Assembly (NCBI GenBank): GCA_003557545.1
Contig: PWOD01000119.1
Location: 1 to 10,168, forward strand
DNA from: a bacterium
GTDB taxonomy: Bacteria > T1Sed10-126
DNA length: 10,168 bases
Direction: 5' to 3'
A program made the translations under genes and the position numbers. The notes beneath the pieces were generated by a model. It was not told the DNA's origin. It did not search any database and saw nothing but the letters and a program-made list of their open reading frames with translations. Positions 1 to 10,168 of this stretch are shown piece after piece. How positions within the stretch are numbered: the stretch's first letter is position 1; each line of letters begins with the position of its first letter.

Positions 1-1638
1 ATGGGTGATTCAACAACCGAGGTAAGTCTGAGTGGACCGGCAACAATAACGGCGCTGTTTGAAGAGGAGCCTGCAGATACCCATTTGTTAACGGTTGAGA
101 ATCCTGATTCAGGGACGATAAGCGTGGGGGGAGTAGCTGCTGAAGATGGTGATACCTTTGTGTTGGAAGAGGGTGTGAATACGGACATTGAGGCATCGGC
201 TGATACAGGTTATCAGTTTATACAATGGTCAGTAATATCTGGAACTCCAAATATAGCTGACACATCAGCGACCACTACCCAGATTAATCTGGAAGAGCCG
301 GCGACAATAACGGCACTGTTTGAACAGGCGCTGGTTGACACTTACATACTGACAGTTGAGGATCCGGATAGTGGTTCAATAATGGTCGCGGGGTCAGTTG
401 CTGTTGATGGTGAGACCTTTGTCTATCAACAGGGAGAAATTGTGACTGTGATAGCTGTGGCTGATACGGACTATCAGTTTGTCAGCTGGACGGGAGATAC
501 GGAGACTATAGCTGATCCCTTGGCCTGGCAAACAACTGTTGAAATATTGTCTGATCTAACTGTTTCAGCCGAGTTTGAGCGAGTTCATTACGATGTTGAA
601 ATAATTAATCCAGTGGGAGGATCGATCTCTGTGGCTGGAGAAACTGTAACAACTGCTTCCGAAATATTTAGTTATCAGGCTGGATCAACAGTTACCATCC
701 GGGCTTATCCAGAGTTAGGTTATGAATGGAGCAACTGGACCGGGGATACGGATTATTTGAATTTTCTGGATAGAACCGAAGTGATTTTATCAGTTGATAC
801 AGATATTATATTATCGGCAAGTTTCAGTCCGAAATATTATCAGTTGACTGTTGGAACCTCTGATTCCGGTGAGGTATATGTTGAAGGTGTCAGGGTAGAT
901 GGAAATTTTGATACTTTTCTCATAAGAGAGGATCAAACCATCAATATTGAAGCTCAGCCGGATGCCGGCTATGAGTTTTATCAATGGGCTGGTGACACTG
1001 ACAATATTGCTGATTTTGAAAGTCGGACTACCACCAAACAGATTTTGCGGGATGCTCTCATCATACCTGTTTTTGTTGGTGAAAGATTTAATTTAACTGT
1101 CTCGGTTCCCGCCCAGGGAAAGATCTATGTAAATGGTCAGGAAGCCAGTGACGGCCAGCAATTTGAGAGTTTTTATGGTGAAACGTTAGCTCTTCGAGCT
1201 GAACCTCTGTCTAATTATGGTTTTATTGAGTGGACTGGTGATATTAATACTATTGCACAACCCGGGGAGAGGATTACTGAAATTGAAATTCTCGAAGATC
1301 TTTCCATATCAGCCAGCTTTGGGACGGTTGGTATCCGGGAGTTGGTTGTTGGTCCTAATCCTTATTATGGATCACAAACTGATCGACCGCTCCGATTTCA
1401 ATTTAGTCAAACTGCCAGTGATCTATTTGAACTTGAAATATATACTGTCAGTGGACGGTTGGTGTTTGATAAAATCTATAGAGATAATCAGATAAGTCAG
1501 GTGGCAAATATGAATTATTTTGAGTGGGATGGCAGAAATAATTCTGGCGCAGATGTTGCCAGAGGAATCTATATTTATCATTTACGGGATCTCGAAACCG
1601 GCCAGGAAAAATCCGGAAAGTTGGCGATTATAAGATGA
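1..1638 (+). CDS. Surface/secreted beta-repeat protein with C-terminal sorting-type domain (5' partial)
   Basis: This is the C-terminal 545 residues of a larger extracellular protein. The ATG at position 1 falls inside a repeat, so the gene almost certainly starts upstream of the window. Residues 1-20 are the tail of one repeat. Five further units follow at about residues 28-107, 115-192, 197-275, 279-358 and 362-440. Each has a beta-strand start (LTVxxPDSGxIxVxG), a central GYxFxxWTGDTxxIAD-like motif, and an end in xxxITAxF or SASF. This pattern matches divergent InlB B-repeat/Flg_new-type domains. Residues 446-545 form a FlgD Ig-like or type-A sorting-type domain: VGPNPYYG, LEIYTVSGRLV, FEWDGRNNSGADVARGIY, then a SGKLAIIR end. 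Such domains often end secreted proteins handled by type 9-like secretion in Bacteroidetes and related groups. The next gene, a PorV-like barrel, overlaps this stop by ATGA. The ligand or function of the repeats is not evident. Confidence 0.85.
   Translation: MGDSTTEVSLSGPATITALFEEEPADTHLLTVENPDSGTISVGGVAAEDGDTFVLEEGVNTDIEASADTGYQFIQWSVISGTPNIADTSATTTQINLEEPATITALFEQALVDTYILTVEDPDSGSIMVAGSVAVDGETFVYQQGEIVTVIAVADTDYQFVSWTGDTETIADPLAWQTTVEILSDLTVSAEFERVHYDVEIINPVGGSISVAGETVTTASEIFSYQAGSTVTIRAYPELGYEWSNWTGDTDYLNFLDRTEVILSVDTDIILSASFSPKYYQLTVGTSDSGEVYVEGVRVDGNFDTFLIREDQTINIEAQPDAGYEFYQWAGDTDNIADFESRTTTKQILRDALIIPVFVGERFNLTVSVPAQGKIYVNGQEASDGQQFESFYGETLALRAEPLSNYGFIEWTGDINTIAQPGERITEIEILEDLSISASFGTVGIRELVVGPNPYYGSQTDRPLRFQFSQTASDLFELEIYTVSGRLVFDKIYRDNQISQVANMNYFEWDGRNNSGADVARGIYIYHLRDLETGQEKSGKLAIIR
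82..1320 (+). repeat. Five in-frame ~78-83-residue beta repeats (InlB-B/Flg_new type)
   Basis: Five tandem protein-coding repeats span about 240-260 bases each and are degenerate at the DNA level. The tail of a sixth unit lies at positions 1-60. The most constant part is WTGDTxxIAD: unit 2 has WTGDTETIAD, unit 3 WTGDTDYLNF, unit 4 WAGDTDNIAD and unit 5 WTGDINTIAQ. Unit 1 has lost it (WSVISGTPNIAD). The DNA is nearly identical only at the junctions before units 1 and 2: 37-63 and 298-324 match at 25 of 27 bases, 261 bases apart. This suggests recent duplication or conversion there. Confidence 0.8.
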
Positions 1639-2624
1639 ATGTTCTGATAATGAAAAGAGGCTTCAAAATATTCAACTTGCCCCTTTTAATCTGCTTTATA
1701 GTGCTTTGTTGTGGAACGCCGAATCAGCTTTTTGCCGGGTCCGCTGGTCAAACTTCCGCAGAAATTTTACGACTTGGTTCTGGAGCGGTAAATCCAGCGA
1801 TGGGGACTTCCGGTGTGGCTTCTGTGTCAGGATCTTCTGCTTTGCATTATAATCCTGCCGGGTTAGCTTTTGGCCGTCCGAGAAATTTCGAACTAACCTA
1901 TCAACAGCTGGTGGAGGGAATAGATTATGGAAATTTCGACTTTACTCAACGAATAAACCCCCGGGGGTCCATAGGGTTGGCATTTCGTTACCTGGATTAT
2001 GGTTCCTTAGATGAGGTTGAATACCAGGGTAATCTATTAGTTCCAACCGGGGATGATTTTTCCGGTCTGGATATGGTTGGAACTATTGGTTACGGGGAAC
2101 AGATTCGTAATTTCGCCTGGGGTTTTTCGGTAAAGTTACTACATTCTAGAATTGCTGATGAAACTGCAACTGCAAGGGCGGTTGATGTGGGGCTACAATG
2201 GCATTCGATGGATTCTGAAATCCCCCTGTCAGTTGGATTGTTGCTGGCTAATATTGGAACCAGAGTTGATAGTATTGAAGAAGATCAACAGGGAGACGAG
2301 TTACCCTTTTTGGGTCGGGCCGGGATCAGTTTTGACTGGTCTAAAAATCTTCCGATTTTGTTAAAAACTAATGTTGATGTTGAATATGATTTTGAATCTG
2401 AAAAGACTGCTGTTATGGCCGGGCTTGAATGGAGTCCGGTCGAACGAGTCGCATTACGTCTGGGTCTGGATGGAACAGTTGATGCTGATGATGGTTTGAC
2501 TGCCGGAGTTGGCCTGGGGTTATCTGACGATCTGCAACTTGATTATGCTTTCGTTCCCCACGGTGACCTTGGTGATCTCCATATAATATCGCTCCAGTAT
2601 TCCCAGGGGAGTCCATCTGATTAA
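1635..2624 (+). CDS. PorV/PorQ family (UPF0164) outer-membrane beta-barrel protein
   Basis: A predicted outer-membrane barrel of 329 residues. The N-terminus is a signal peptide, with a hydrophobic run at about residues 14-26 and a likely cleavage near FAG at 33-35. The mature N-terminus carries the family signature: AEILRLGSGAVNPAMGTSG, then SALHYNPAGLA at about residues 68-78. The rest alternates amphipathic beta-strands rich in G, Y and F. It ends in LDYAFVPHGDLGDLHIISL, typical of PorV/PorQ-like proteins. In Bacteroidetes, PorV binds the C-terminal domain of type 9 cargo. Here the upstream gene encodes a protein with a similar C-terminal domain, and the stop and start overlap (ATGA, 1635-1638). 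This supports translational coupling and a cargo-partner pairing (inference). No good Shine-Dalgarno precedes 1635. The in-frame ATG at 1650 is an alternative start giving a more compact signal peptide (MKRGFKIF). Confidence 0.85.
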   Translation: MNVLIMKRGFKIFNLPLLICFIVLCCGTPNQLFAGSAGQTSAEILRLGSGAVNPAMGTSGVASVSGSSALHYNPAGLAFGRPRNFELTYQQLVEGIDYGNFDFTQRINPRGSIGLAFRYLDYGSLDEVEYQGNLLVPTGDDFSGLDMVGTIGYGEQIRNFAWGFSVKLLHSRIADETATARAVDVGLQWHSMDSEIPLSVGLLLANIGTRVDSIEEDQQGDELPFLGRAGISFDWSKNLPILLKTNVDVEYDFESEKTAVMAGLEWSPVERVALRLGLDGTVDADDGLTAGVGLGLSDDLQLDYAFVPHGDLGDLHIISLQYSQGSPSD

Positions 2625-2713
2625 AATTTAGTTACTTTTGTTTCGAGCTTGATATCTCATATATTGATTTATTTCAATAGCCGGCAGACGACAGTAGCGT
2701 TGTTACTAAATTT
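2624..2713. repeat. Spaced imperfect inverted repeat after the porV-like gene
   Basis: AAATTTAGTTAC at 2624-2635 is the reverse complement, with one mismatch, of GTTACTAAATTT at 2702-2713. The arms are separated by 66 bases. A small inner hairpin, TATTGA/TCAATA with a six-base loop, sits at 2662-2679. There is no U-tract, so it is not an ordinary intrinsic terminator. It could be a folded 3' element of the upstream transcript, or chance in AT-rich DNA. Confidence 0.4.
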
Positions 2714-2732
2714 TCCACGAATGCGGTTTGAT

Positions 2733-2760
2733 TTCACTTTTACTAGACTTAGCTTATAAT
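2733..2760 (+). promoter_or_regulatory. Candidate sigma-70/sigma-A promoter for cpdB
   Basis: A perfect -10 hexamer TATAAT is at 2755-2760. A weaker -35, TTCACT (4 of 6), is at 2733-2738, with a 16-base spacer. Transcription would start near 2767, giving a leader of about 48 bases before the ATG at 2815. This fits cpdB being a separate transcription unit from the porV-like gene. Confidence 0.5.
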
Positions 2761-2801
2761 TGGTTAGCTGGAGGTATTAAAGATAAATCTATTATCTAAT
2801 T

Positions 2802-2807
2802 GGAGGG
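2802..2807 (+). promoter_or_regulatory. Ribosome binding site deciding the cpdB start
   Basis: GGAGGG lies seven bases before the ATG at 2815 and fixes that codon as the start. An in-frame TTG at 2800 overlaps this site and has no Shine-Dalgarno of its own at usable spacing, so it was not chosen. A second SD-like GGAGGT sits at 2770-2775, just after the predicted transcription start, with no ATG, GTG or TTG at normal spacing. Confidence 0.75.
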
Positions 2808-2814
2808 AATAGTC

Positions 2815-4725
2815 ATGAATATTAATAAGCTGAACAAGCAGTTTAGTTTAATCCCTGTTCTGCTGGTGCTGTTTATTTTAGGAATTAGTGGTTATTTGAT
2901 TCAACCCGCCATGAGTGAGCAACCTGTGAATGAAACGCTTGCTATTTTATCCACCACCGATCTTCATCAATATATCCTGCCTTACAACTACATGGAAGAT
3001 CGTCCACAGGAAGATATCGGTTTTTCAAAAACATATAGTTTAATTCAACGTGCCCGGGAGAAATATCCTAATACTATTTTACTTGATGGGGGGGATGCTA
3101 TTCAGGGAAGTCTGGCCGGTGTCATAGAAGCCCAGGTTGAACCGTTAAAGGTGGGCGAGATCCAGACCATAGTTGAGATAATGAATACTGCGGGTTATGA
3201 TGCCGCAGCGATTGGTAATCATGAGGTCCAGGATTATGGTCTTGATTTTCTTGACAGGGCCATCGAGGGCTCCGATTTCCCCTGGCTGTCGGCCAATATG
3301 GTTCATGCGGATGAACCGTCCGAATTTTATACACAACCTTATGTAGTACTGGAAAAAGAAATTGCCGGCAAACCCATAAAGATTGGTGTTATTAGTTTTG
3401 TTCCCCCCCAGATAATGCAATGGGGTAGAGCTCATTTACATGGCCGGGTAATAGCTTTTGATATCCTGGAACAGGCCGAGAGATATATCCCCCGGCTGGC
3501 TGAAAAATCAGATATATTGATTGCCAATGCACATACTGGAATCGATGATTCTCCACCGGATTCTTATGAGGCCCGAGAAAATGCTGGTTATTATCTGGCA
3601 CAGTTCGATGAAGTTGACGCAATGATTACCGGGCATCAACATTTTAATTTTCCCAACGATCATTTTGCTGATATGGCCGGTGTTGATGTTGCAGCGGGAA
3701 CTGTTCATGGAGTTCCGACAGTTATGCCGGGTTCCTGGGGAAGTAGATTGGGAATTATTGAGCTGCAGCTTCAGCATGATGGCGATGGATGGTTTGTAGA
3801 AGATCATTTAGTTGAACTCTGGGAAGTTGATGCGACTGTAGAATCAAGTCCGAAAATCGAGCAGATGGCGGCTGATTTGCATCAGAGAACCCTTGACTAT
3901 GTCAGAACTCCAATCGGCCGGACAGCCATTCCAATCAAATCTTATTTTTCCAGAATTAAGGACAGTGCGGTGACTCAACTGGTCAACGATGCTCAGCTCT
4001 GGTATGGGAAACAGCAGCTTGCCGGTTCAGAATATGAAGAACTACCGCTGCTGTCGGCTTCCGCTCCCTTTGTCGCCGGTCGCCAGGGACCGGATTATTA
4101 TAGCCGTGTTAGCGATGAGATAACGATTGGAGATGTCACCGATATTTATCTTTATGATAACACTGTATTTATCTTAAAATTGGATGGCCGGCAAATTATT
4201 GATTGGATTGAACATAGTGGTCGTAATTTTAATACCATTAATCCGGACGCTGAAATGGCACAACACCTGTTGAATTACCAGGTCAACGCCTTCAATTTTG
4301 ATGTTATTGAAGGGATAGAATATATTTACGATCTTACCCGTGATGTTGGTGAGCGTGTTATCGAGGCCACATACCAGGGTGAACCCCTTAGCAGTGATAT
4401 GAAGTTTGCTGTGGTGACAAATGATTATCGTGCCGGCGGTGGTGGAGGCTTCCCTCACATGGAGGATGACAATGTGATTTTTCAGTCGGCGGATGTTAAC
4501 CGGCAGCAGCTGATCTATTATATTGAAGCCCAGGAGGAGATTGATCCACAGCCCAGTGGTAATTGGAAAATTAAACCGCTGGATACCAGAGCTCCCCTGT
4601 TAGTTCGTTCCCATTCAGAAACTGCTGATTTTTTAGAAGCAAGAAATATCCAGGGGATCGAAATAATCGAGGTGGATGAAGAGGGCTGGGGGATTTATCA
4701 GATCGATTTAACTGAGCTACCGTAG
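2815..4725 (+). CDS. cpdB: 2',3'-cyclic-nucleotide 2'-phosphodiesterase / 3'-nucleotidase
   Basis: A 636-residue exported metallophosphoesterase that hydrolyses 2',3'-cyclic nucleotides and 3'-nucleotides outside the cytoplasm, allowing nucleoside and phosphate salvage. The signal peptide or anchor has a hydrophobic run at about residues 12-28. The metallophosphatase domain has its metal-site motifs in order: STTDLHQY (D49, H51), LDGGDAIQGS (D94), GNHE (N135, H136), NAHTG (H240) and GHQH (H274, H276). The 5'-nucleotidase C-terminal domain runs from about residue 360. It includes YLYDNTVFILKLDGRQ and the substrate-loop-like NDYRAGGGGGFP (536-547), which point to the CpdB subgroup rather than UshA. 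Length is close to E. coli CpdB (about 647). One oddity is that after GNHE the chain reads VQDYG where relatives usually have FNYG, one residue longer. The gene has its own promoter and a strong RBS. The next gene converges on it with a five-base gap. Confidence 0.92.
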   Translation: MNINKLNKQFSLIPVLLVLFILGISGYLIQPAMSEQPVNETLAILSTTDLHQYILPYNYMEDRPQEDIGFSKTYSLIQRAREKYPNTILLDGGDAIQGSLAGVIEAQVEPLKVGEIQTIVEIMNTAGYDAAAIGNHEVQDYGLDFLDRAIEGSDFPWLSANMVHADEPSEFYTQPYVVLEKEIAGKPIKIGVISFVPPQIMQWGRAHLHGRVIAFDILEQAERYIPRLAEKSDILIANAHTGIDDSPPDSYEARENAGYYLAQFDEVDAMITGHQHFNFPNDHFADMAGVDVAAGTVHGVPTVMPGSWGSRLGIIELQLQHDGDGWFVEDHLVELWEVDATVESSPKIEQMAADLHQRTLDYVRTPIGRTAIPIKSYFSRIKDSAVTQLVNDAQLWYGKQQLAGSEYEELPLLSASAPFVAGRQGPDYYSRVSDEITIGDVTDIYLYDNTVFILKLDGRQIIDWIEHSGRNFNTINPDAEMAQHLLNYQVNAFNFDVIEGIEYIYDLTRDVGERVIEATYQGEPLSSDMKFAVVTNDYRAGGGGGFPHMEDDNVIFQSADVNRQQLIYYIEAQEEIDPQPSGNWKIKPLDTRAPLLVRSHSETADFLEARNIQGIEIIEVDEEGWGIYQIDLTELP

Positions 4726-4730
4726 ATTGG

Positions 4731-6287
4731 TTATTCTATCTCGGTTATTTTTAAATTGCTAAAAATAACCTCGTAACCAGCACCTTCAGCCCAGCTTTTA
4801 GCGTAGATGCCCGCCTGTGCTTTTTCAGTCTCAAACGGTGGTTTATACCCGTTTAGCTTTCTCCAGTAAGTTTCACCGGCCTGTTTGAATAACGGAATTA
4901 TTTTATCTTCCTGTAATGCCAGCCCGATTTTTTCCGGTAATCCGCTGTAGTTTCGAACATTAACTATCTCCTCGCCCGCTTTGTTGACCATCATTCTGAT
5001 CGAGTTGCCATCACCGGTTGGTCCCCAGTGTAACCAGTTGTTAGCATCTTTTTTTAGAATTATTCCGGTTTCGCGGCCCCAGATTAGCTCTACCTCTAAA
5101 TTGGTCGTTAATTTCCAGTTTTCCGGCAGCGATCCTTTCCAGTAGAGCTGGGGTGCTGTTTGACTGTGATACCATAGCTCAGATGGTTGTTTAACAGTCA
5201 GAATCAGTTTGTTTTCTTGAAACTCATAGTGGTTTTCAGCAGCCCCATAATATTCAAATTCTTTGCTAAAATCGTCGGTTAAAAGGTTAATATTCAGCAG
5301 CTCTCTAATTATTTCTGGTTGGAATCTATCAAACAGGCTGAGATAGTCAAAAGTTCGTATTTCATATGTTCCGGCCTCTTTTTGTGGATTAACTCGCACT
5401 TTGACAAAACCATCATACCCGGTTTGATAAATCTCCACATCAAATTCTTCTAATCTGTTCACTACTTCAGCGTGGGGATGACCAAATGGACCATTTCGAG
5501 GAGCAGGGATGATTGCCACCTCCGGCCGGGTAGTTTCAAGAAGTCTTCGTCCCGTAGAAGTTCGGCTGCCGTGATGGCCGGCCTTAAGGATATCTATATC
5601 AGAAATTAATCCCTCGCGGACCCATTGATTTTCCTGCTGTGTATAGGCATCCCCGGTGGTCAGTATTTTTACCCCGTTAATTTCGATTGGAAAACTGATT
5701 GAATCCTGGTTTAGATCTCCCCGTGGGGGATCGGTTGGATTGATAATTTCAACGAAAAACTCTGGTAATAGCTCTTTTTTTTCTGTTCGGGAGACGGTGT
5801 AGTAGGGGATCTCCTTCTGGTCGATAAGTTCCAGCAGTGATAGATAAAGTCCGGTTGTTTGTTGATTTTTAATATCCCAAACCTGGCCCACATCAAACTG
5901 CTCTATTAATCTGGAAGCGCCTCCGATATGATCGGCGTGTGGATGTGTGAGAACCAGAGTTTCTATCCTGTTTATATTCAGCTTGTTGAGTAATCTGATA
6001 ACTGATTCGATTCCCCCGGCCGTGGCAGCGTCGATCACAGCAACCTGTCCCTGCGGATTTAATAATATGGCCGCATCTGCTTGACCGACCGGTGCTACAA
6101 TATATCGCCATACCGGTTCATTTAAATCGGGGCTCTCATCTGTAATAGCCTCTGTTTCCGCCGGCTTTTGATCTACCGATAAAGGTTCTCCCTTACTAAA
6201 AATCAGGTAGCCAATTAATCCTGCCAGCCCGACACCCAGGATTAAAACTAATACTAGAGTGATTTTTTGAGAAAATATTTTTTTCAT
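4731..6287 (-). CDS. Membrane-anchored ComEC/Rec2-like metallo-beta-lactamase-fold protein with C-terminal lectin-like domain
   Basis: A 518-residue protein. Residues 9-30 form an N-terminal membrane segment with no lipobox cysteine, so the rest is probably outside the cytoplasm on a Pro/Glu/Asp-rich linker (33-57). Residues about 60-310 are a metallo-beta-lactamase fold of the ComEC C-terminal type: PVGQADAAIL (family VGQGDA), D86, THPHADHIGG (114-123), TTGDA (210-214), KAGHHGSRTS (235-244) and GHPHAEV (269-275). The metal-binding residues appear present. In ComEC this domain is linked to DNA uptake, but stand-alone versions have unproven substrates and no ComEC pore is encoded here. Residues about 335-518 form a second beta-rich domain resembling concanavalin-A-like/DUF1349 domains (TGIILKKDANNWLHWG; QAGIYAKSW near the end; FSNLKIT). 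The ATG at 6287 has no clear Shine-Dalgarno. A hydrolase acting on a surface or extracellular substrate is inferred. Confidence 0.83.
   Translation of the reverse strand: MKKIFSQKITLVLVLILGVGLAGLIGYLIFSKGEPLSVDQKPAETEAITDESPDLNEPVWRYIVAPVGQADAAILLNPQGQVAVIDAATAGGIESVIRLLNKLNINRIETLVLTHPHADHIGGASRLIEQFDVGQVWDIKNQQTTGLYLSLLELIDQKEIPYYTVSRTEKKELLPEFFVEIINPTDPPRGDLNQDSISFPIEINGVKILTTGDAYTQQENQWVREGLISDIDILKAGHHGSRTSTGRRLLETTRPEVAIIPAPRNGPFGHPHAEVVNRLEEFDVEIYQTGYDGFVKVRVNPQKEAGTYEIRTFDYLSLFDRFQPEIIRELLNINLLTDDFSKEFEYYGAAENHYEFQENKLILTVKQPSELWYHSQTAPQLYWKGSLPENWKLTTNLEVELIWGRETGIILKKDANNWLHWGPTGDGNSIRMMVNKAGEEIVNVRNYSGLPEKIGLALQEDKIIPLFKQAGETYWRKLNGYKPPFETEKAQAGIYAKSWAEGAGYEVIFSNLKITEIE
4743..4770. 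repeat. Perfect 11-bp palindrome at the cpdB / MBL convergent junction
   Basis: GGTTATTTTTA (4743-4753) and TAAAAATAACC (4760-4770) pair perfectly around a six-base loop (AATTGC). It lies 17 bases beyond the cpdB stop but inside the last codons of the convergent gene, where it encodes part of SNLKITE. A further GGTTATT copy at 4729-4735 overlaps that gene's TAA stop and could pair with the same right arm. It lacks a trailing T-run in either direction, so it is at best an atypical bidirectional terminator. Confidence 0.45.
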
Positions 6288-6329
6288 TATTTTTTATACT
6301 CACTTTCAGGTGAAAACAGTTAGAAATTC

Positions 6330-6358
6330 TTGACGTTAAATTTACCTTGTGGTTCAAT
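6330..6358 (+). promoter_or_regulatory. Candidate promoter for the four-TM protein gene
   Basis: The -35 TTGACG (6330-6335, 5 of 6) and -10 TTCAAT (6353-6358, 4 of 6) are separated by 17 bases. The leader would be about 65 bases and ends in a strong AGGAGAG ribosome site. The hexamers lie back to back with the candidate promoter of the divergent gene (6360-6387), so only one polymerase could bind at a time. Confidence 0.4.
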
Positions 6359-6359
6359 C

Positions 6360-6387
6360 ATTGTAGGGTTTAATTTTAACATGGAAA
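6360..6387 (-). promoter_or_regulatory. Weak candidate promoter for the divergent MBL gene
   Basis: Read on the minus strand, TTTCCA (6387-6382, 4 of 6) and TACAAT (6365-6360, 5 of 6) are separated by 16 bases, about 70 bases upstream of the ATG at 6287. The match is modest in an AT-rich spacer. Confidence 0.3.
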
Positions 6388-6430
6388 TTTATTTGCTTCT
6401 ATTTCTAATCTTTTAGGAGAGTGAAATCTT

Positions 6431-6928
6431 ATGTTTTGGATTAAGGCTGCCGCAGCCGGGTTGGTTGGAGGGGTGGCTGGATCAGCCGTCTATCAGCTTG
6501 CAATCTATAGTGGCCTGGCACCGTTTAATATCTACCCGTTTGTTGCTTATTTGGAAACTTTGAATATACCAACTGGTGGTATGAATTTTTTTCTGCAACT
6601 TATCTATGGAACAGTCTGGTCTATTTTTCTCGTTTGGATATTCCATACAACGGTTAATTGGAAGAAGGGGATCGGGCTGGCAATCTTTCTCTGGCTGATC
6701 ATGGGGTTTGTTTATGCTCCGGTTATTGGTTGGGGGCTATTTGGGTTTGCCGGAAGCAGTCAGCTTTCTCCGGAACATGGTCTGTATCTCGACCCTGGTC
6801 TCTGGTTTTTTATCATAACCCTGGTCCATTATCTGGTTTATGGTTATTTAATCGGGATAATTAATGACTGGTGGATAAAAGACACAGATGATGTTGCAGC
6901 TCAGATTAGAAAGCATTCCGAAATCTAA
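6431..6928 (+). CDS. Four-transmembrane membrane protein of unknown function
   Basis: A 165-residue hydrophobic protein that I do not recognise as a named family. Four membrane segments are visible at about residues 4-28, 51-74, 79-106 and 123-148. The first is Gly/Ala-rich (AAAAGLVGGVAGSAV), a pattern common in tight helix packing. Loop motifs include APFNIYPF (30-37), APVIGWGLFGFAG (96-108) and SPEHGLYLDPG (113-123). The C-terminus is short and charged (DTDDVAAQIRKHSEI), probably cytoplasmic. The start is set by AGGAGAG at 6415-6421, nine bases before the ATG. The DUF188 gene follows 35 bases downstream on the same strand, so the two may be co-transcribed. A small permease-like or scaffold role is possible, but nothing in the sequence points to a substrate. 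Confidence 0.8.
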   Translation: MFWIKAAAAGLVGGVAGSAVYQLAIYSGLAPFNIYPFVAYLETLNIPTGGMNFFLQLIYGTVWSIFLVWIFHTTVNWKKGIGLAIFLWLIMGFVYAPVIGWGLFGFAGSSQLSPEHGLYLDPGLWFFIITLVHYLVYGYLIGIINDWWIKDTDDVAAQIRKHSEI

Positions 6929-6963
6929 AGCGGTCTAATCCAACAATATTTCATGAAAGGAAG

Positions 6964-7425
6964 TTGATTAATATAAAATCCAGGACTATCTATGTGGACG
7001 CCGATGCCTGTCCGGTAATTGATGATATAGTAGAACTGGCTCCAGAGTCTGAAATCCATCTTGTTCATAACCAGCACCATTTTATTAATAGTACGGCCGA
7101 TAATGTAACCATTCATCTAACCGGCGATGGACCCGATCAGGCAGATCATCTAATTTATAATCTCAGTCAACCAGGGGACCTTGTAGTCACCGACGACCTT
7201 GGACTGGCTGCTCTGGCTCTCGGAGGGGGGCGCGATGTGTTACGGTTTCGAGGTGATAAGCCGACCAATCAAAACATTGACGCAGTTTTGGAGATTCGCC
7301 ATGCTGCTGCCCGCCACCGTAAGGCTGGTAATTATCAGCGCGGCCCTGCCCGGTTTAGCGAGGAGGACAGGATTAAGTTTCGGAAGGGTTTGAAGAAACT
7401 TTTACAATCCGGGGTGGACGGGTAG
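6964..7425 (+). CDS. UPF0178 / DUF188 family protein (YaiI/YqxD-like)
   Basis: A cytoplasmic protein of about 153 residues belonging to UPF0178 (YaiI in E. coli, YqxD in Bacillus), related to the PIN/NYN nuclease-like fold. Its activity is not established. Family motifs are clear: VDADACPV (11-18), GPDQADHLI (56-64), GDLVVTDDLGLAALAL (71-86), RFRGD (94-98), TNQNID (101-106) and GPARFSEEDRIKF (127-139). The acidic residues D12, D14, D58 and D77/D78 sit where nuclease-like folds hold metal. The start is uncertain. TTG at 6964 directly abuts AAAGGAAG (6956-6963), which is too close for a normal Shine-Dalgarno. ATT at 6967 or ATA at 6973 would be better spaced but are rare start codons. An ATG at 6953 is out of frame and stops after four codons. 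The 3' end overlaps the convergent methyltransferase gene by 53 bases. Confidence 0.88.
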   Translation: MINIKSRTIYVDADACPVIDDIVELAPESEIHLVHNQHHFINSTADNVTIHLTGDGPDQADHLIYNLSQPGDLVVTDDLGLAALALGGGRDVLRFRGDKPTNQNIDAVLEIRHAAARHRKAGNYQRGPARFSEEDRIKFRKGLKKLLQSGVDG

Positions 7426-8203
7426 TTTTTTCTGCGATAAATTTAATCCTTCGATAATCAAGATACCACCGGTTGTTTTTGAAATGGGTAGATTTTAAGC
7501 TGGCTTCTAACCGGTTAATTAATGAGCGTCGTTGATTATCTTCCAGCGGGCTCAAAATTTTATTTGAAAATAAACTCATCCATAAACGAAAACCCTCAGC
7601 CCCCGGAAGTTCTGCAGTTTTTTTAAAATTATCGATCGAGAGTACTTTAAAGCCGGCTTTTTCCAGCTCAGTTTTGTATTGTTCGATAGATGGGAAATAC
7701 CAGGGATCCAGCTCTTGGGGGTCATAACCATACTCTTCCAAAAGTTTATGTAATAACTGCTGAATCTTCGATATATTACCCTGCCCGGCAAATTCAGCAA
7801 CAAATTTCCCATTATCTCTCAGTAAATCATAGAGTTTTTTCAGGGTGGGTTGGGGTTGTTTAATCCAGTGTAATACATCGTTAGAAAAAATTTTGTCAAA
7901 CTTTTCAGAAGAATTGAATTCTCTGACATCACAGTTGTAAAATTCAATATCAGAAAACTGTTCACGGGCCACTGCAATCATTTCTGCTGATGGATCAATC
8001 CCTACAACCCGGCCGCCCTGTAAAGCAATCTTCCTGGTTAATTCTCCGGTGCCACAGCCAAAATCAAGAATCTTTTCATCCGGCTGTATAGAAAGCTGGG
8101 CGAGGGGATCGGTCTGGTTAAAAGGTGTGGTTGAAATTATTTTACCATAGAGTTTGGCGTCCCAATCGGCCTGTTGTTGATCGATTAAAACTCTTTTTTT
8201 CAT
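7373..8203 (-). CDS. Class I SAM-dependent methyltransferase (trans-aconitate 2-methyltransferase-like)
   Basis: A 276-residue soluble methyltransferase. The Rossmann-type SAM site is evident: motif I ILDFGCGTGELT (45-56), the acidic residue after strand 2 in VVGIDPSAEM (66-75, D70), NCDVREF (90-96), and motif IV FSNDVLHWIKQP (106-117). FSNxxLHW and EFAGQGNI (137-144) are typical of the trans-aconitate 2-methyltransferase (Tam) group, whose members methylate small carboxylates. Length is close to the group (about 250-260), with a basic C-terminal tail of about 15 residues that reads across the DUF188 gene. The exact substrate cannot be set from sequence. The ATG at 8203 is preceded by AAGGG about nine bases upstream and overlaps by ATGA the stop of a small upstream reading frame. 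A good promoter lies about 80 bases upstream. Confidence 0.87.
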   Translation of the reverse strand: MKKRVLIDQQQADWDAKLYGKIISTTPFNQTDPLAQLSIQPDEKILDFGCGTGELTRKIALQGGRVVGIDPSAEMIAVAREQFSDIEFYNCDVREFNSSEKFDKIFSNDVLHWIKQPQPTLKKLYDLLRDNGKFVAEFAGQGNISKIQQLLHKLLEEYGYDPQELDPWYFPSIEQYKTELEKAGFKVLSIDNFKKTAELPGAEGFRLWMSLFSNKILSPLEDNQRRSLINRLEASLKSTHFKNNRWYLDYRRIKFIAEKTTRPPRIVKVSSNPSET

Positions 8204-8352
8204 TTCTTATCTACCCTTGATTCTGAAAAATAGATGGTTTTATTGACCACTGGTTCTATTTTATCAGTCAGTTTAAAACCACTCATTATAGCTTTTGAGC
8301 AAATTTTTGCCAGGGAAAAATCAGTATGTATTAACTTGAAATCTTCTCTCAT
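8200..8352 (-). CDS. Small hypothetical ORF coupled to the methyltransferase, possibly a decayed gene remnant
   Basis: On the minus strand an open frame of 60 codons (8382 to 8200) contains an ATG at 8352. It would encode a 50-residue basic peptide (MREDFKLIHTDF... to ...SESRVDKK). Its TGA overlaps the methyltransferase ATG as ATGA (8203-8200), the arrangement of co-translated genes. First codon positions are about two-thirds purine, as in coding DNA. Against it, no Shine-Dalgarno precedes any start, and the methyltransferase promoter's TATAAT lies inside it. A second ORF in another frame (ATG at 8434, TGA at 8321, 37 residues, MVHKSVDYNQFNFINGII...) runs into it from upstream. A one-base shift near 8380-8388 would join the two into a protein of about 78 residues. 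A frameshifted remnant is therefore as likely as a live small gene. Confidence 0.35.
   Translation of the reverse strand: MREDFKLIHTDFSLAKICSKAIMSGFKLTDKIEPVVNKTIYFSESRVDKK
8285..8313 (-). promoter_or_regulatory. Candidate promoter for the methyltransferase gene
   Basis: Read on the minus strand, -35 CTGGCA (8313-8308, 4 of 6) and a perfect -10 TATAAT (8290-8285) are separated by 17 bases. Transcription would start near 8278 with a leader of about 75 bases. Its presence inside the small ORF suggests that ORF is not needed for methyltransferase expression. Confidence 0.55.
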
Positions 8353-8370
8353 TCTGTAATAGAACAAGGT

Positions 8371-8400
8371 TTGACCGCCAAATTATTCCATTGATAAAAT
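8371..8400 (+). promoter_or_regulatory. Candidate promoter P1 for the DUF432-mscS operon
   Basis: TTGACC (8371-8376, 5 of 6) and TAAAAT (8395-8400, 5 of 6) are separated by 18 bases. The leader to the ATG at 8514 would be about 105 bases. Confidence 0.45.
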
Positions 8401-8408
8401 TAAACTGG

Positions 8409-8437
8409 TTGTAATCCACCGATTTATGTACCATAAT
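8409..8437 (+). promoter_or_regulatory. Candidate promoter P2 for the DUF432-mscS operon
   Basis: TTGTAA (8409-8414, 4 of 6) and CATAAT (8432-8437, 5 of 6) are separated by 17 bases. It lies immediately downstream of P1, so the operon may have tandem promoters, or only one of the two is real. Confidence 0.35.
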
Positions 8438-8513
8438 TTTATTTAACTTTATGGGTCAGTGCGTTTTTTTGTTGATAGGGATTTTTGCTAATCGGAAGGC
8501 AGGGTGATACCTG

Positions 8514-9278
8514 ATGGAGTTTGGCGAAAAAGTTGTCTTACAGTCTGGTGAGTCCAGCGAGTTTAGTTTCAAAAATCATTTCATAACTGTTAAGTTTGAA
8601 GCAGGGATAATTCGTTATCAACGTTTCGACATAGATAGCGATGAACTGCTGTTTGAAAAAGATTTTTTATTGAAAGATCAGCGGAGAGCCCGTCTTAAAT
8701 TCCGGCCACTTTATCCAGACCGACCTGTTGTTGTTAAACCCTCGATTAATCCGGTTGTTCCTCCCGGTGAAAAGGGCCAGTTCTTTTTAACTATTCCACT
8801 TTCCTTTGGATTGGGTTTTTCCAGGACTGAAACAGTATTTGAAGAGATCCTTAAAAATCCGCGGAAAAATAGTTATTGGGGTCCGGTCACAGGGGGTCTG
8901 TTAGTTTATCAATTTCGTCCCCGGCTTTTTTATCAGATGTCGGAAGCTTTTGATTCAACTGAATTGGATGAGGTGCTTATTCCGGTAACCCTGTTGAATC
9001 GGACCAAAGAACCACTTACTGTTGATCGTTGTTTAATCCCCTGCCGGGAGTTAGATCTTTATAAGACGACCGATCAGAAGTTACTTTTTGAGAACATTAG
9101 AATTGAGCAATTTTCGGATGATCAACAAAATTCTCATCCGGCCGGGAAAATCTTTGACCGGGCGGGGCAAGATCTGGCTTTACTTGAGAAAGCTCCGAAT
9201 CCACCGCAAACATTATTGGGCCGTGTAAGTCAGTTTTCTCGAATTGATCAGTTAACGGGGGTGTTTGGAGACCGATGA
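8514..9278 (+). CDS. DUF432 family protein, probable partner of the MscS-type channel
   Basis: A 254-residue soluble protein with no signal peptide or membrane segment. Its layout fits DUF432: an N-terminal beta region ending in IRYQRFD (33-39), a central proline-rich part (FRPLYPDRPVVVKPSINPV, 63-81), the strand LTIPLSFGLGF (92-102), and a YWGPVTGGLLVYQFRPRLFY block (121-140) like the family's YGxxxxGxxxRY motif. LIPVTLLNRTKEPLTVDRCLIP (155-176) resembles the later I-x-N-x-T strand region. The family has no established biochemical role. Its stop overlaps the MscS start by ATGA, and I recall DUF432 genes beside MscS-like channel genes elsewhere, so a regulatory or assembly role for the channel is inferred. 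AGGGTG at 8501-8506, seven bases before the ATG, supports this start. Assignment is by pattern memory, so moderately sure. Confidence 0.72.
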   Translation: MEFGEKVVLQSGESSEFSFKNHFITVKFEAGIIRYQRFDIDSDELLFEKDFLLKDQRRARLKFRPLYPDRPVVVKPSINPVVPPGEKGQFFLTIPLSFGLGFSRTETVFEEILKNPRKNSYWGPVTGGLLVYQFRPRLFYQMSEAFDSTELDEVLIPVTLLNRTKEPLTVDRCLIPCRELDLYKTTDQKLLFENIRIEQFSDDQQNSHPAGKIFDRAGQDLALLEKAPNPPQTLLGRVSQFSRIDQLTGVFGDR

Positions 9279-10120
9279 GTTATTTTTTACAAAATCTGCA
9301 GGAACTTGTTGCAAGCTGGCCGGTTGAACAGCTTATATATTTGCTTCTTATTGGTATTGTTGGTTTTTTTCTTGCCCGCATAATCGCTTTGCTTATCGGC
9401 CGGCAGTTTTCTAGAAAAAAAGACTCGACGGCTGGAATGATAGCAGAAAAATTAGTTTTTTACGGTTTGCTCCTCCTGGTTGTGGCTATAATTTTACATG
9501 AACTTGATGTCGGGTTAGGGGCGATACTTGCGGCCGGTGGATTTTTAGGGTTGGCTGTAGGTTTTGCTGCTCAAACTTCTGTTTCCAACATGATTAGTGG
9601 AATCTTTCTTATGTTTGAACGACCTTTTCAGGTAGGGGATGTTATTCGTATCGGCGAGGATTTTGGCGCAGTCTTAAGCATTGATCTGCTCTCTACGAAG
9701 ATTCGTACCTTTGATAATCTGTACTGGCGAGTGCCGAATGAAAAGATTTTAAAAACTGATTTTAAGACAATTACCAAATATGATATTCGGCGGATGGATA
9801 TCAGTACCAGTATCAGTTATGAAGATGATATCCAGGTGGCCAGGGATGTGCTGCTAGAATCTGCTGAACGGGAACCATTGATTTTAGGTGACCCTGAACC
9901 GGTGGTGTTAGTCACCAAAATGGCTGACTCAGGGATTGAACTTCTGCTTCGCTGCTGGTTTTATAAAACTGATTTTTTAGCAGCGCAAACAGCATTGACC
10001 CATAATATAAAGATCGAACTTGAAAAGGCCGGTTGCACTATTCCTTTTCCCCATCAAACTGTTTATTTGCGTCAAGAGGAAGATTGGGAAAAAGCTGCTA
10101 TTCTGGAACAAAACAGTTAA
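9275..10120 (+). CDS. Small-conductance mechanosensitive channel (MscS family)
   Basis: A 281-residue inner-membrane channel, close to E. coli MscS in size (286). It opens on membrane tension and releases solutes after hypo-osmotic shock, as a homoheptamer in known members. Three membrane segments are at about residues 18-42, 57-77 and 82-113. The last is the Gly/Ala-rich pore helix: AAGGFLGLAVGFAAQTSVSN (86-105), then ISGIFLMFERPFQVGD (107-122). The cytosolic beta and alpha/beta domains follow, with LLSTKIRTFDNLYWRVPNEKI (138-158, family: T.I.T.D...V.IPN) and the usual C-terminal IPFPHQTVYL (256-265). TM1 ends with a basic patch (GRQFSRKKD). The ATG overlaps the DUF432 stop and has GGAG four bases upstream, so the two are translationally coupled. 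A probable hypD follows after 15 bases. Confidence 0.93.
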   Translation: MSYFLQNLQELVASWPVEQLIYLLLIGIVGFFLARIIALLIGRQFSRKKDSTAGMIAEKLVFYGLLLLVVAIILHELDVGLGAILAAGGFLGLAVGFAAQTSVSNMISGIFLMFERPFQVGDVIRIGEDFGAVLSIDLLSTKIRTFDNLYWRVPNEKILKTDFKTITKYDIRRMDISTSISYEDDIQVARDVLLESAEREPLILGDPEPVVLVTKMADSGIELLLRCWFYKTDFLAAQTALTHNIKIELEKAGCTIPFPHQTVYLRQEEDWEKAAILEQNS

Positions 10121-10135
10121 TATTTTTGAACAGCC

Positions 10136-10168
10136 ATGAAATATCTTGATGAATTCCGGGAATCGGAA
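10136..10168 (+). CDS. hypD: Probable hydrogenase maturation factor HypD (first 11 codons, 3' truncated by window)
   Basis: The last 33 bases encode MKYLDEFRESE from an ATG at 10136. HypD proteins typically begin MKYLDEFRD(P/G)E, so this is a likely hypD start. HypD is the iron-sulfur scaffold that helps build the Fe(CN)2CO unit of NiFe hydrogenases. Only the first 11 codons are visible, no strong Shine-Dalgarno precedes the ATG, and the gap to the mscS stop is 15 bases. The identification rests on this short match. Confidence 0.5.
   Translation, partial: MKYLDEFRESE

Follow-up and report, generated by a model that had tools for sequence, protein, structure and literature searches.

Two overlapping genes at the beginning of a bacterial contig appear to encode a cargo protein and its own outer-membrane carrier, which together would form one pair of a divergent type 9-like export system, a reading to which we assign a probability of about 0.72. 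The evidence is computational only; export itself, pairwise specificity, anchoring and the energy source are all inferred.

A cargo gene overlapping the gene of its putative carrier

The stretch of DNA that we analysed (the window, positions 1-10168) is the whole of contig C77 of a draft genome, here G000, which comprises 2.15 Mb in 239 contigs and is 91.9% complete with an estimated contamination of 0.52%. The pair lies at its start, with these features:

1-1638, + strand: cargo ORF, an InlB-repeat protein of which only the C-terminal part is present
1..1317, + strand: cargo passenger region of InlB-type B-repeats (five PF18998, Flg_new_2, stretches; 3.5e-39)
1318..1635, + strand: Ig-like sorting domain at the cargo C-terminus, last ~105 residues (own-genome profile A3; fold model; PorU/PorZ C-terminal regions and TIGR04183, below cut-off)
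1635..1638, + strand: ATGA overlap of the cargo stop and the first possible barrel start (sequence)
1635..2624, + strand: outer-membrane barrel of the PorV/PorQ family, 14 strands, with signal peptide (NF033709; AlphaFold2; structure comparison)

Window position 1 is the first base of the contig, so the N-terminus of the cargo is missing and its 545 aa are a C-terminal part only. The ATGA overlap of stop and start that an earlier, sequence-only reading of this DNA had described is present, and a second in-frame ATG of the barrel ORF, at 1650, opens a more typical signal peptide (MKRGFKIF...), leaving the exact barrel start uncertain. Judged from these letters, translational coupling within the window's own pair is likely but not certain. 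At 8514-10120, a weak DUF432 match lies directly upstream of an MscS-type channel gene with a 4-base overlap.

The downstream gene encodes a PorV-family barrel

The downstream protein, previously called PorV/PorQ-like, scores 141 bits against the PorV/PorQ family model NF033709, well above the cut-off of 90. It stays below the equivalog models for PorV sensu stricto (NF033710, 55.7 vs 250 bits) and PorQ (NF033711, 106.7 vs 220 bits), and UPF0164 (PF03687) is absent among its Pfam matches at E <= 1. Its AlphaFold2 model (pLDDT 84.8) has 14 strands and is closest to PorV (8gl6_F, Z 32.5; 6h3i_F, Z 32.3), with FadL-type channels reaching 29.9 at most. A PorP/SprF score was weak and confined to one barrel paralogue. 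Recognition of C-terminal domains (CTDs) by PorV is established in F. johnsoniae, and PorV has a known role inside SprA (PMC10994853).

Three of six G000 barrels carry TPR repeats in a C-terminal extension, which is unusual for a PorV-type barrel:

L033:9305-10657 (C231), TPR-extended barrel
L034:670-1938 (C119), TPR-extended barrel
L035:8769-10070 (C136), TPR-extended barrel

The cargo ends in a domain resembling type 9 sorting signals

A FlgD/type-A-like sorting domain had been recognized at the end of the upstream protein, and we recover it at residues ~440-545, with every match below its curated cut-off: FlgD_ig, top among its Pfam matches, reaches 24.3 bits and CHU_C 21.3 bits (cut-off 27 for both), and the Type A CTD model TIGR04183 about 17.2-20.9 bits (cut-off 23). 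In an alignment of 18 CTD copies, the PorU model was matched at E <= 0.01 by 18/18 copies, PorZ by 17/18 and TIGR04183 by 15/18; FlgD models were matched by 5-6 of the 18. For the window's CTD, the PorU and PorZ matches fall at the C-terminal ends of both models. Searching the PDB with the CTD profile ranked PorZ (4.9e-6) and PorU (3.7e-4) ahead of FlgD (0.6); with this value and a FlgD Ig-like domain score under its cut-off, we found no support for identity with the FlgD hook cap.

The AlphaFold2 model of the CTD (pLDDT 87.5) has the C-terminus of PorU as its best PDB match (Z 10.5 over 99 residues), with the CTDs of PorZ, mirolase and NucA close behind. The fold alone is not decisive, as Vpr, a protease unrelated to these proteins, comes level at 10.2 and unrelated Ig folds follow with Z 8-9. 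A lysine or arginine stands near the C-terminus in 17/18 copies; in Type A signals the basic residue at this place is lysine (PMC10994853). As far as such comparisons reach, the CTD seems closest, if weakly, to the signals at the C-termini of PorU and PorZ, and matches them better than TIGR04183.

Cargo and barrel genes recur as pairs in distant lineages

All six G000 barrels above the NF033709 cut-off (6/6) directly follow a CTD cargo, as does a seventh, divergent barrel (C198). The window's arrangement thus recurs at every convincing PorV-family locus of its genome and is not due to chance. The sequence-only reading had proposed surveying related genomes for conserved adjacency, which we did by taking the barrels of four further genomes irrespective of their neighbours and scoring the upstream genes with an HMM trained only on G000 CTDs. 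The gene upstream of the barrel carried the domain in 10/10 cases in G001 (same family, separate assembly), 12/13 in G029, 11/14 in G032 (labelled Hydrogenedentota J006) and 10/13 in G035 (labelled Elusimicrobia UBA9639), or 33/40 in the three lineages outside the family. Pooled over the four genomes, 43/50 upstream genes carried it, vs 7/139 other ORFs (Fisher 1e-27), and in no surveyed genome was it ever found in the ORF downstream of a barrel. In PorU-bearing FCB-type genomes the pairing is rarer (12/19) and partly takes the form PorU-PorV. By manual count over five genomes, a start codon giving a 4-base ATGA/GTGA overlap is available in 37/53 pairs; G035 has it in 11/13 pairs, in most of which no other start was found.

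A reading without any secretion role, in which an adhesin with a FlgD-like Ig module merely happens to lie beside a FadL-type small-molecule channel, is highly improbable in the face of this recurrence. It can appeal to FlgD_ig as the best Pfam match of the window's CTD, to FadL-type channels as second in the barrel comparison and to other PorV-family genes that adjoin a TonB receptor or a histidine kinase (below), but PorU and PorZ CTDs rank above FlgD, PorV ranks above FadL, the PorV-family score exceeds its cut-off with UPF0164 unmatched, and the A3 domain is absent from ten genomes lacking a convincing SprA or PorV match. A barrel grouping with UPF0164 proteins and a pairing unique to this locus had been named as what would make a secretion link unlikely, and neither is the case.

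The A3 profile has 38 matches in G000, spread over many contigs, and most of these belong to orphan cargos without an adjoining barrel, so that carriers are not strictly one per cargo.

PorV-family genes also occur in other company. At four Ignavibacteria-type loci (L062, L063, L065, L066) the gene of a PorV-family barrel shares an ATGA overlap with a gene of ~946 aa; the one copy of the latter that was tested encodes a TonB-dependent receptor, and some family members may therefore serve another role. At L072-L096, mostly from Nitrospira, a ~480-aa weak PorV relative lies behind a ~950-980-aa gene, with start/stop overlap in several cases. This is a different conserved pairing, in which the only partner tested is a hybrid histidine kinase. 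Given these two kinds of partner, cargo pairing does not extend to the superfamily as a whole. The closest named pair (L046, 42% identity) comes from a MAG labelled Candidatus Nealsonbacteria, where it lies on a contig of 3.1 kb. This MAG has a single PorV, no SprA match and an RpoB that is distant; the contig is probably mis-binned and derived from a relative of the window's lineage.

Signal and barrel covary within genomes

Across the 53 pairs of the five genomes, within-genome distances between CTDs correlate with those between barrels (r = 0.70). Shuffling partners within genomes gave a maximum r of 0.384 in 5000 trials, and each genome alone reached p <= 0.002. Co-duplication of the operon contributes to such a signal, which means that the covariation demonstrates co-inheritance and is merely consistent with specificity.

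It is quite unlikely, in our view, that several barrels are interchangeable PorV/PorQ paralogues, brought next to cargos by operon duplication and not by dedication to them. Co-duplication could indeed yield the covariation, G000 has 38 CTD matches for only about 7 paired barrels, and the single PorV of F. johnsoniae handles every Type A cargo (PMC12618676). Yet adjacency with overlapping genes has been kept in five genomes of distant lineages, the distances are correlated within every one of them, and Bacteroidota Type B cargos, which have the same gene order, use cognate shuttles (PMC12618676).

The genome encodes a divergent SprA homologue

TIGR04189 detects SprA-like pieces at two contig ends of G000 (C23 and C86), of which L031 scores 74.5 bits, under the cut-off of 200. 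L031 (over 950 aa, 3e-99) and L032 (over 699 aa, 2e-50) both line up, in collinear order, with a single SprA-type protein of G029. Homologues of L031 were found at 1e-99 to 1e-20 in G029, G032, G035, G030, G007 and G034, and G001 has an SprA fragment, likewise at a contig end, that is 52% identical to L031. A profile of the SprA family from nine sequences, FCB-type members included, retrieved F. johnsoniae SprA from the PDB (6h3i_A, 4e-159). As L031 alone matched no PDB chain with phmmer, the identification rests on the profile and the collinear alignments, by which G000 has a divergent homologue of SprA/Sov in two pieces, each at a contig end. With seven pairs in G000, ten in G001 and this homologue, the combination of several pairs plus SprA that had been put forward as support for a type 9-like route is in place.

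Over 31 genomes, SprA and above-cut-off PorV-family proteins co-occur strongly (10 genomes shared of 11 and 11; Fisher 2.6e-6). The exceptions leave room for an unlikely alternative, two-partner display without SprA, in which the barrel alone would accept and anchor its cargo and SprA would serve other proteins or be incidental. G033, G039 and G040 carry many PorV-family genes without an SprA match, and in G027 PorV and the CTD are present and SprA was not found; G033 has CTDs as well, and the gene pairing does not itself involve SprA. These genomes, however, were searched with the divergent L031 query only. Besides the co-occurrence, this alternative has to contend with a barrel fold that is that of PorV, known to act inside SprA (PMC10994853), and with a predicted 14-strand PorV/FadL-type barrel in which, we infer, a giant protein in folded form would have no obvious pore to pass.

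Two features of SprA loci were observed in passing. A ~300-aa protein is encoded directly downstream of SprA in L180 (G007), L181 (G010), L182 (G034) and L184 (G002); the G007 copy matches Peptidase_M28, a family that includes glutaminyl cyclases, and the other three are its homologues. Several of these loci have two conserved LptF/LptG permease-like proteins on the opposite side of SprA.

The pairs belong to a lineage outside the FCB-type genomes compared

The sequence-only reading had remarked that the rest of the window does not look like Bacteroidetes. By RpoB, G000 groups with G001, then with G029, apart from the Ignavibacteria/Kapabacteria-type clade, and lacks the RpoB insert carried by those genomes. 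Its closest SprA relatives, G029 and G032, also group with G000 in this tree, unlike the FCB-type genomes.

That the pairs and SprA stem from Bacteroidota contigs mis-binned into the MAG, or from recent transfer, we regard as barely credible. The draft is fragmented into its 239 contigs and SprA sits at two contig ends, but the separate assembly G001 has ten pairs and its own SprA fragment, the 38 CTD matches are dispersed over many contigs of a genome with low estimated contamination, and the nearest SprA relatives join G000, not the FCB-type genomes, by RpoB.

No PorU sortase was detected

No Peptidase_C25 was found in G000, where the sequence-only reading had suggested looking for PorU, nor in G001, nor in the pair-rich, SprA-positive genomes G029, G032 and G035; ten other genomes scored strongly in the same search, and completeness is about 92-93% for G000 and G001. 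The motor protein GldM (TIGR03517) had no match in 21 genomes, PorU-bearing ones included, and that model does match in 4/21 genomes from the phylum of G037. Since it misses PorU-bearing relatives too, failure to detect GldM is not evidence that a motor is absent. Of the reduced or divergent type 9-like route originally suspected, divergence is supported and reduction only in part, by the undetected PorU peptidase; actual secretion and carrier specificity remain inferences.

A model for cargo and carrier pairs

In the model that we favour, the cargo would reach the periplasm via Sec. Within the pore of the SprA homologue, which G000 encodes at another place, the CTD of the cargo would be read by extracellular loops of the PorV-like barrel that its own operon supplies, and the barrel would then carry the cargo out through SprA's lateral gate. 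The cargo would probably stay bound to its own barrel as surface anchor, as no PorU sortase was found that could cut off the signal domain. By analogy, such an anchoring barrel may parallel PorP/SprF, for which the same has been proposed with Type B cargo in Bacteroidota.

Whether this extends to a sortase-less SprA/PorV export found in several lineages outside Fibrobacterota-Chlorobiota-Bacteroidota, with Type A-like signals read by translationally coupled, single-cargo PorV-family barrels that stay as the anchor, is in our estimate an even bet. Such a system could be an ancestral or a parallel form of type 9 secretion.

Relation to known type 9 systems and significance

Like the Type A route of F. 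johnsoniae and P. gingivalis, the G000 system has an SprA-type translocon protein, a PorV-fold barrel and an Ig-like C-terminal signal with K/R near its end. Unlike that route, in which Type A signals share one PorV (F. johnsoniae; PMC12618676), it has many PorV-family barrels behind their own cargos, PorU was undetected, and the lineage lies outside the FCB-type genomes compared. For Type B cargos, a PorP/SprF shuttle of their own, proposed as anchor, is commonly encoded directly downstream (PMC12618676), and the window shares this order of cargo gene followed directly by the gene of its outer-membrane carrier; its barrel, however, is of the PorV/PorQ family and not PorP/SprF, and its CTD looks like the signals of Type A cargo, PorU and PorZ and unlike those of Type B. 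A CTD-bearing protein also lies directly upstream of PorV in the PorU-PorV operon of the Ignavibacteria-type genomes G037, G038 and G002, as judged from the positions of PorV and Peptidase_C25, but in that operon it is the sortase that precedes PorV. The G000 system combines a Type A-like signal and a PorV-family barrel with the gene logic of Type B.

Type 9 secretion has been described as exclusive to Bacteroidota (PMC12618676) or as limited to the FCB group, with none in other bacteria (PMC11285876), and our literature search, limited in its coverage, found no report of SprA/PorV pairs outside FCB. To find SprA alongside dozens of giant proteins that bear the signal, and alongside apparently dedicated carriers of PorV type, in diderm lineages outside that group changes where type 9 secretion is to be sought and bears on how the system may have arisen. 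How PorV-family loops read CTDs has been left open by structures of one promiscuous PorV, and natural pairs with covarying signal and barrel offer a test bed for it. Type 9 secretion looks both wider in distribution and differently built than has been described.
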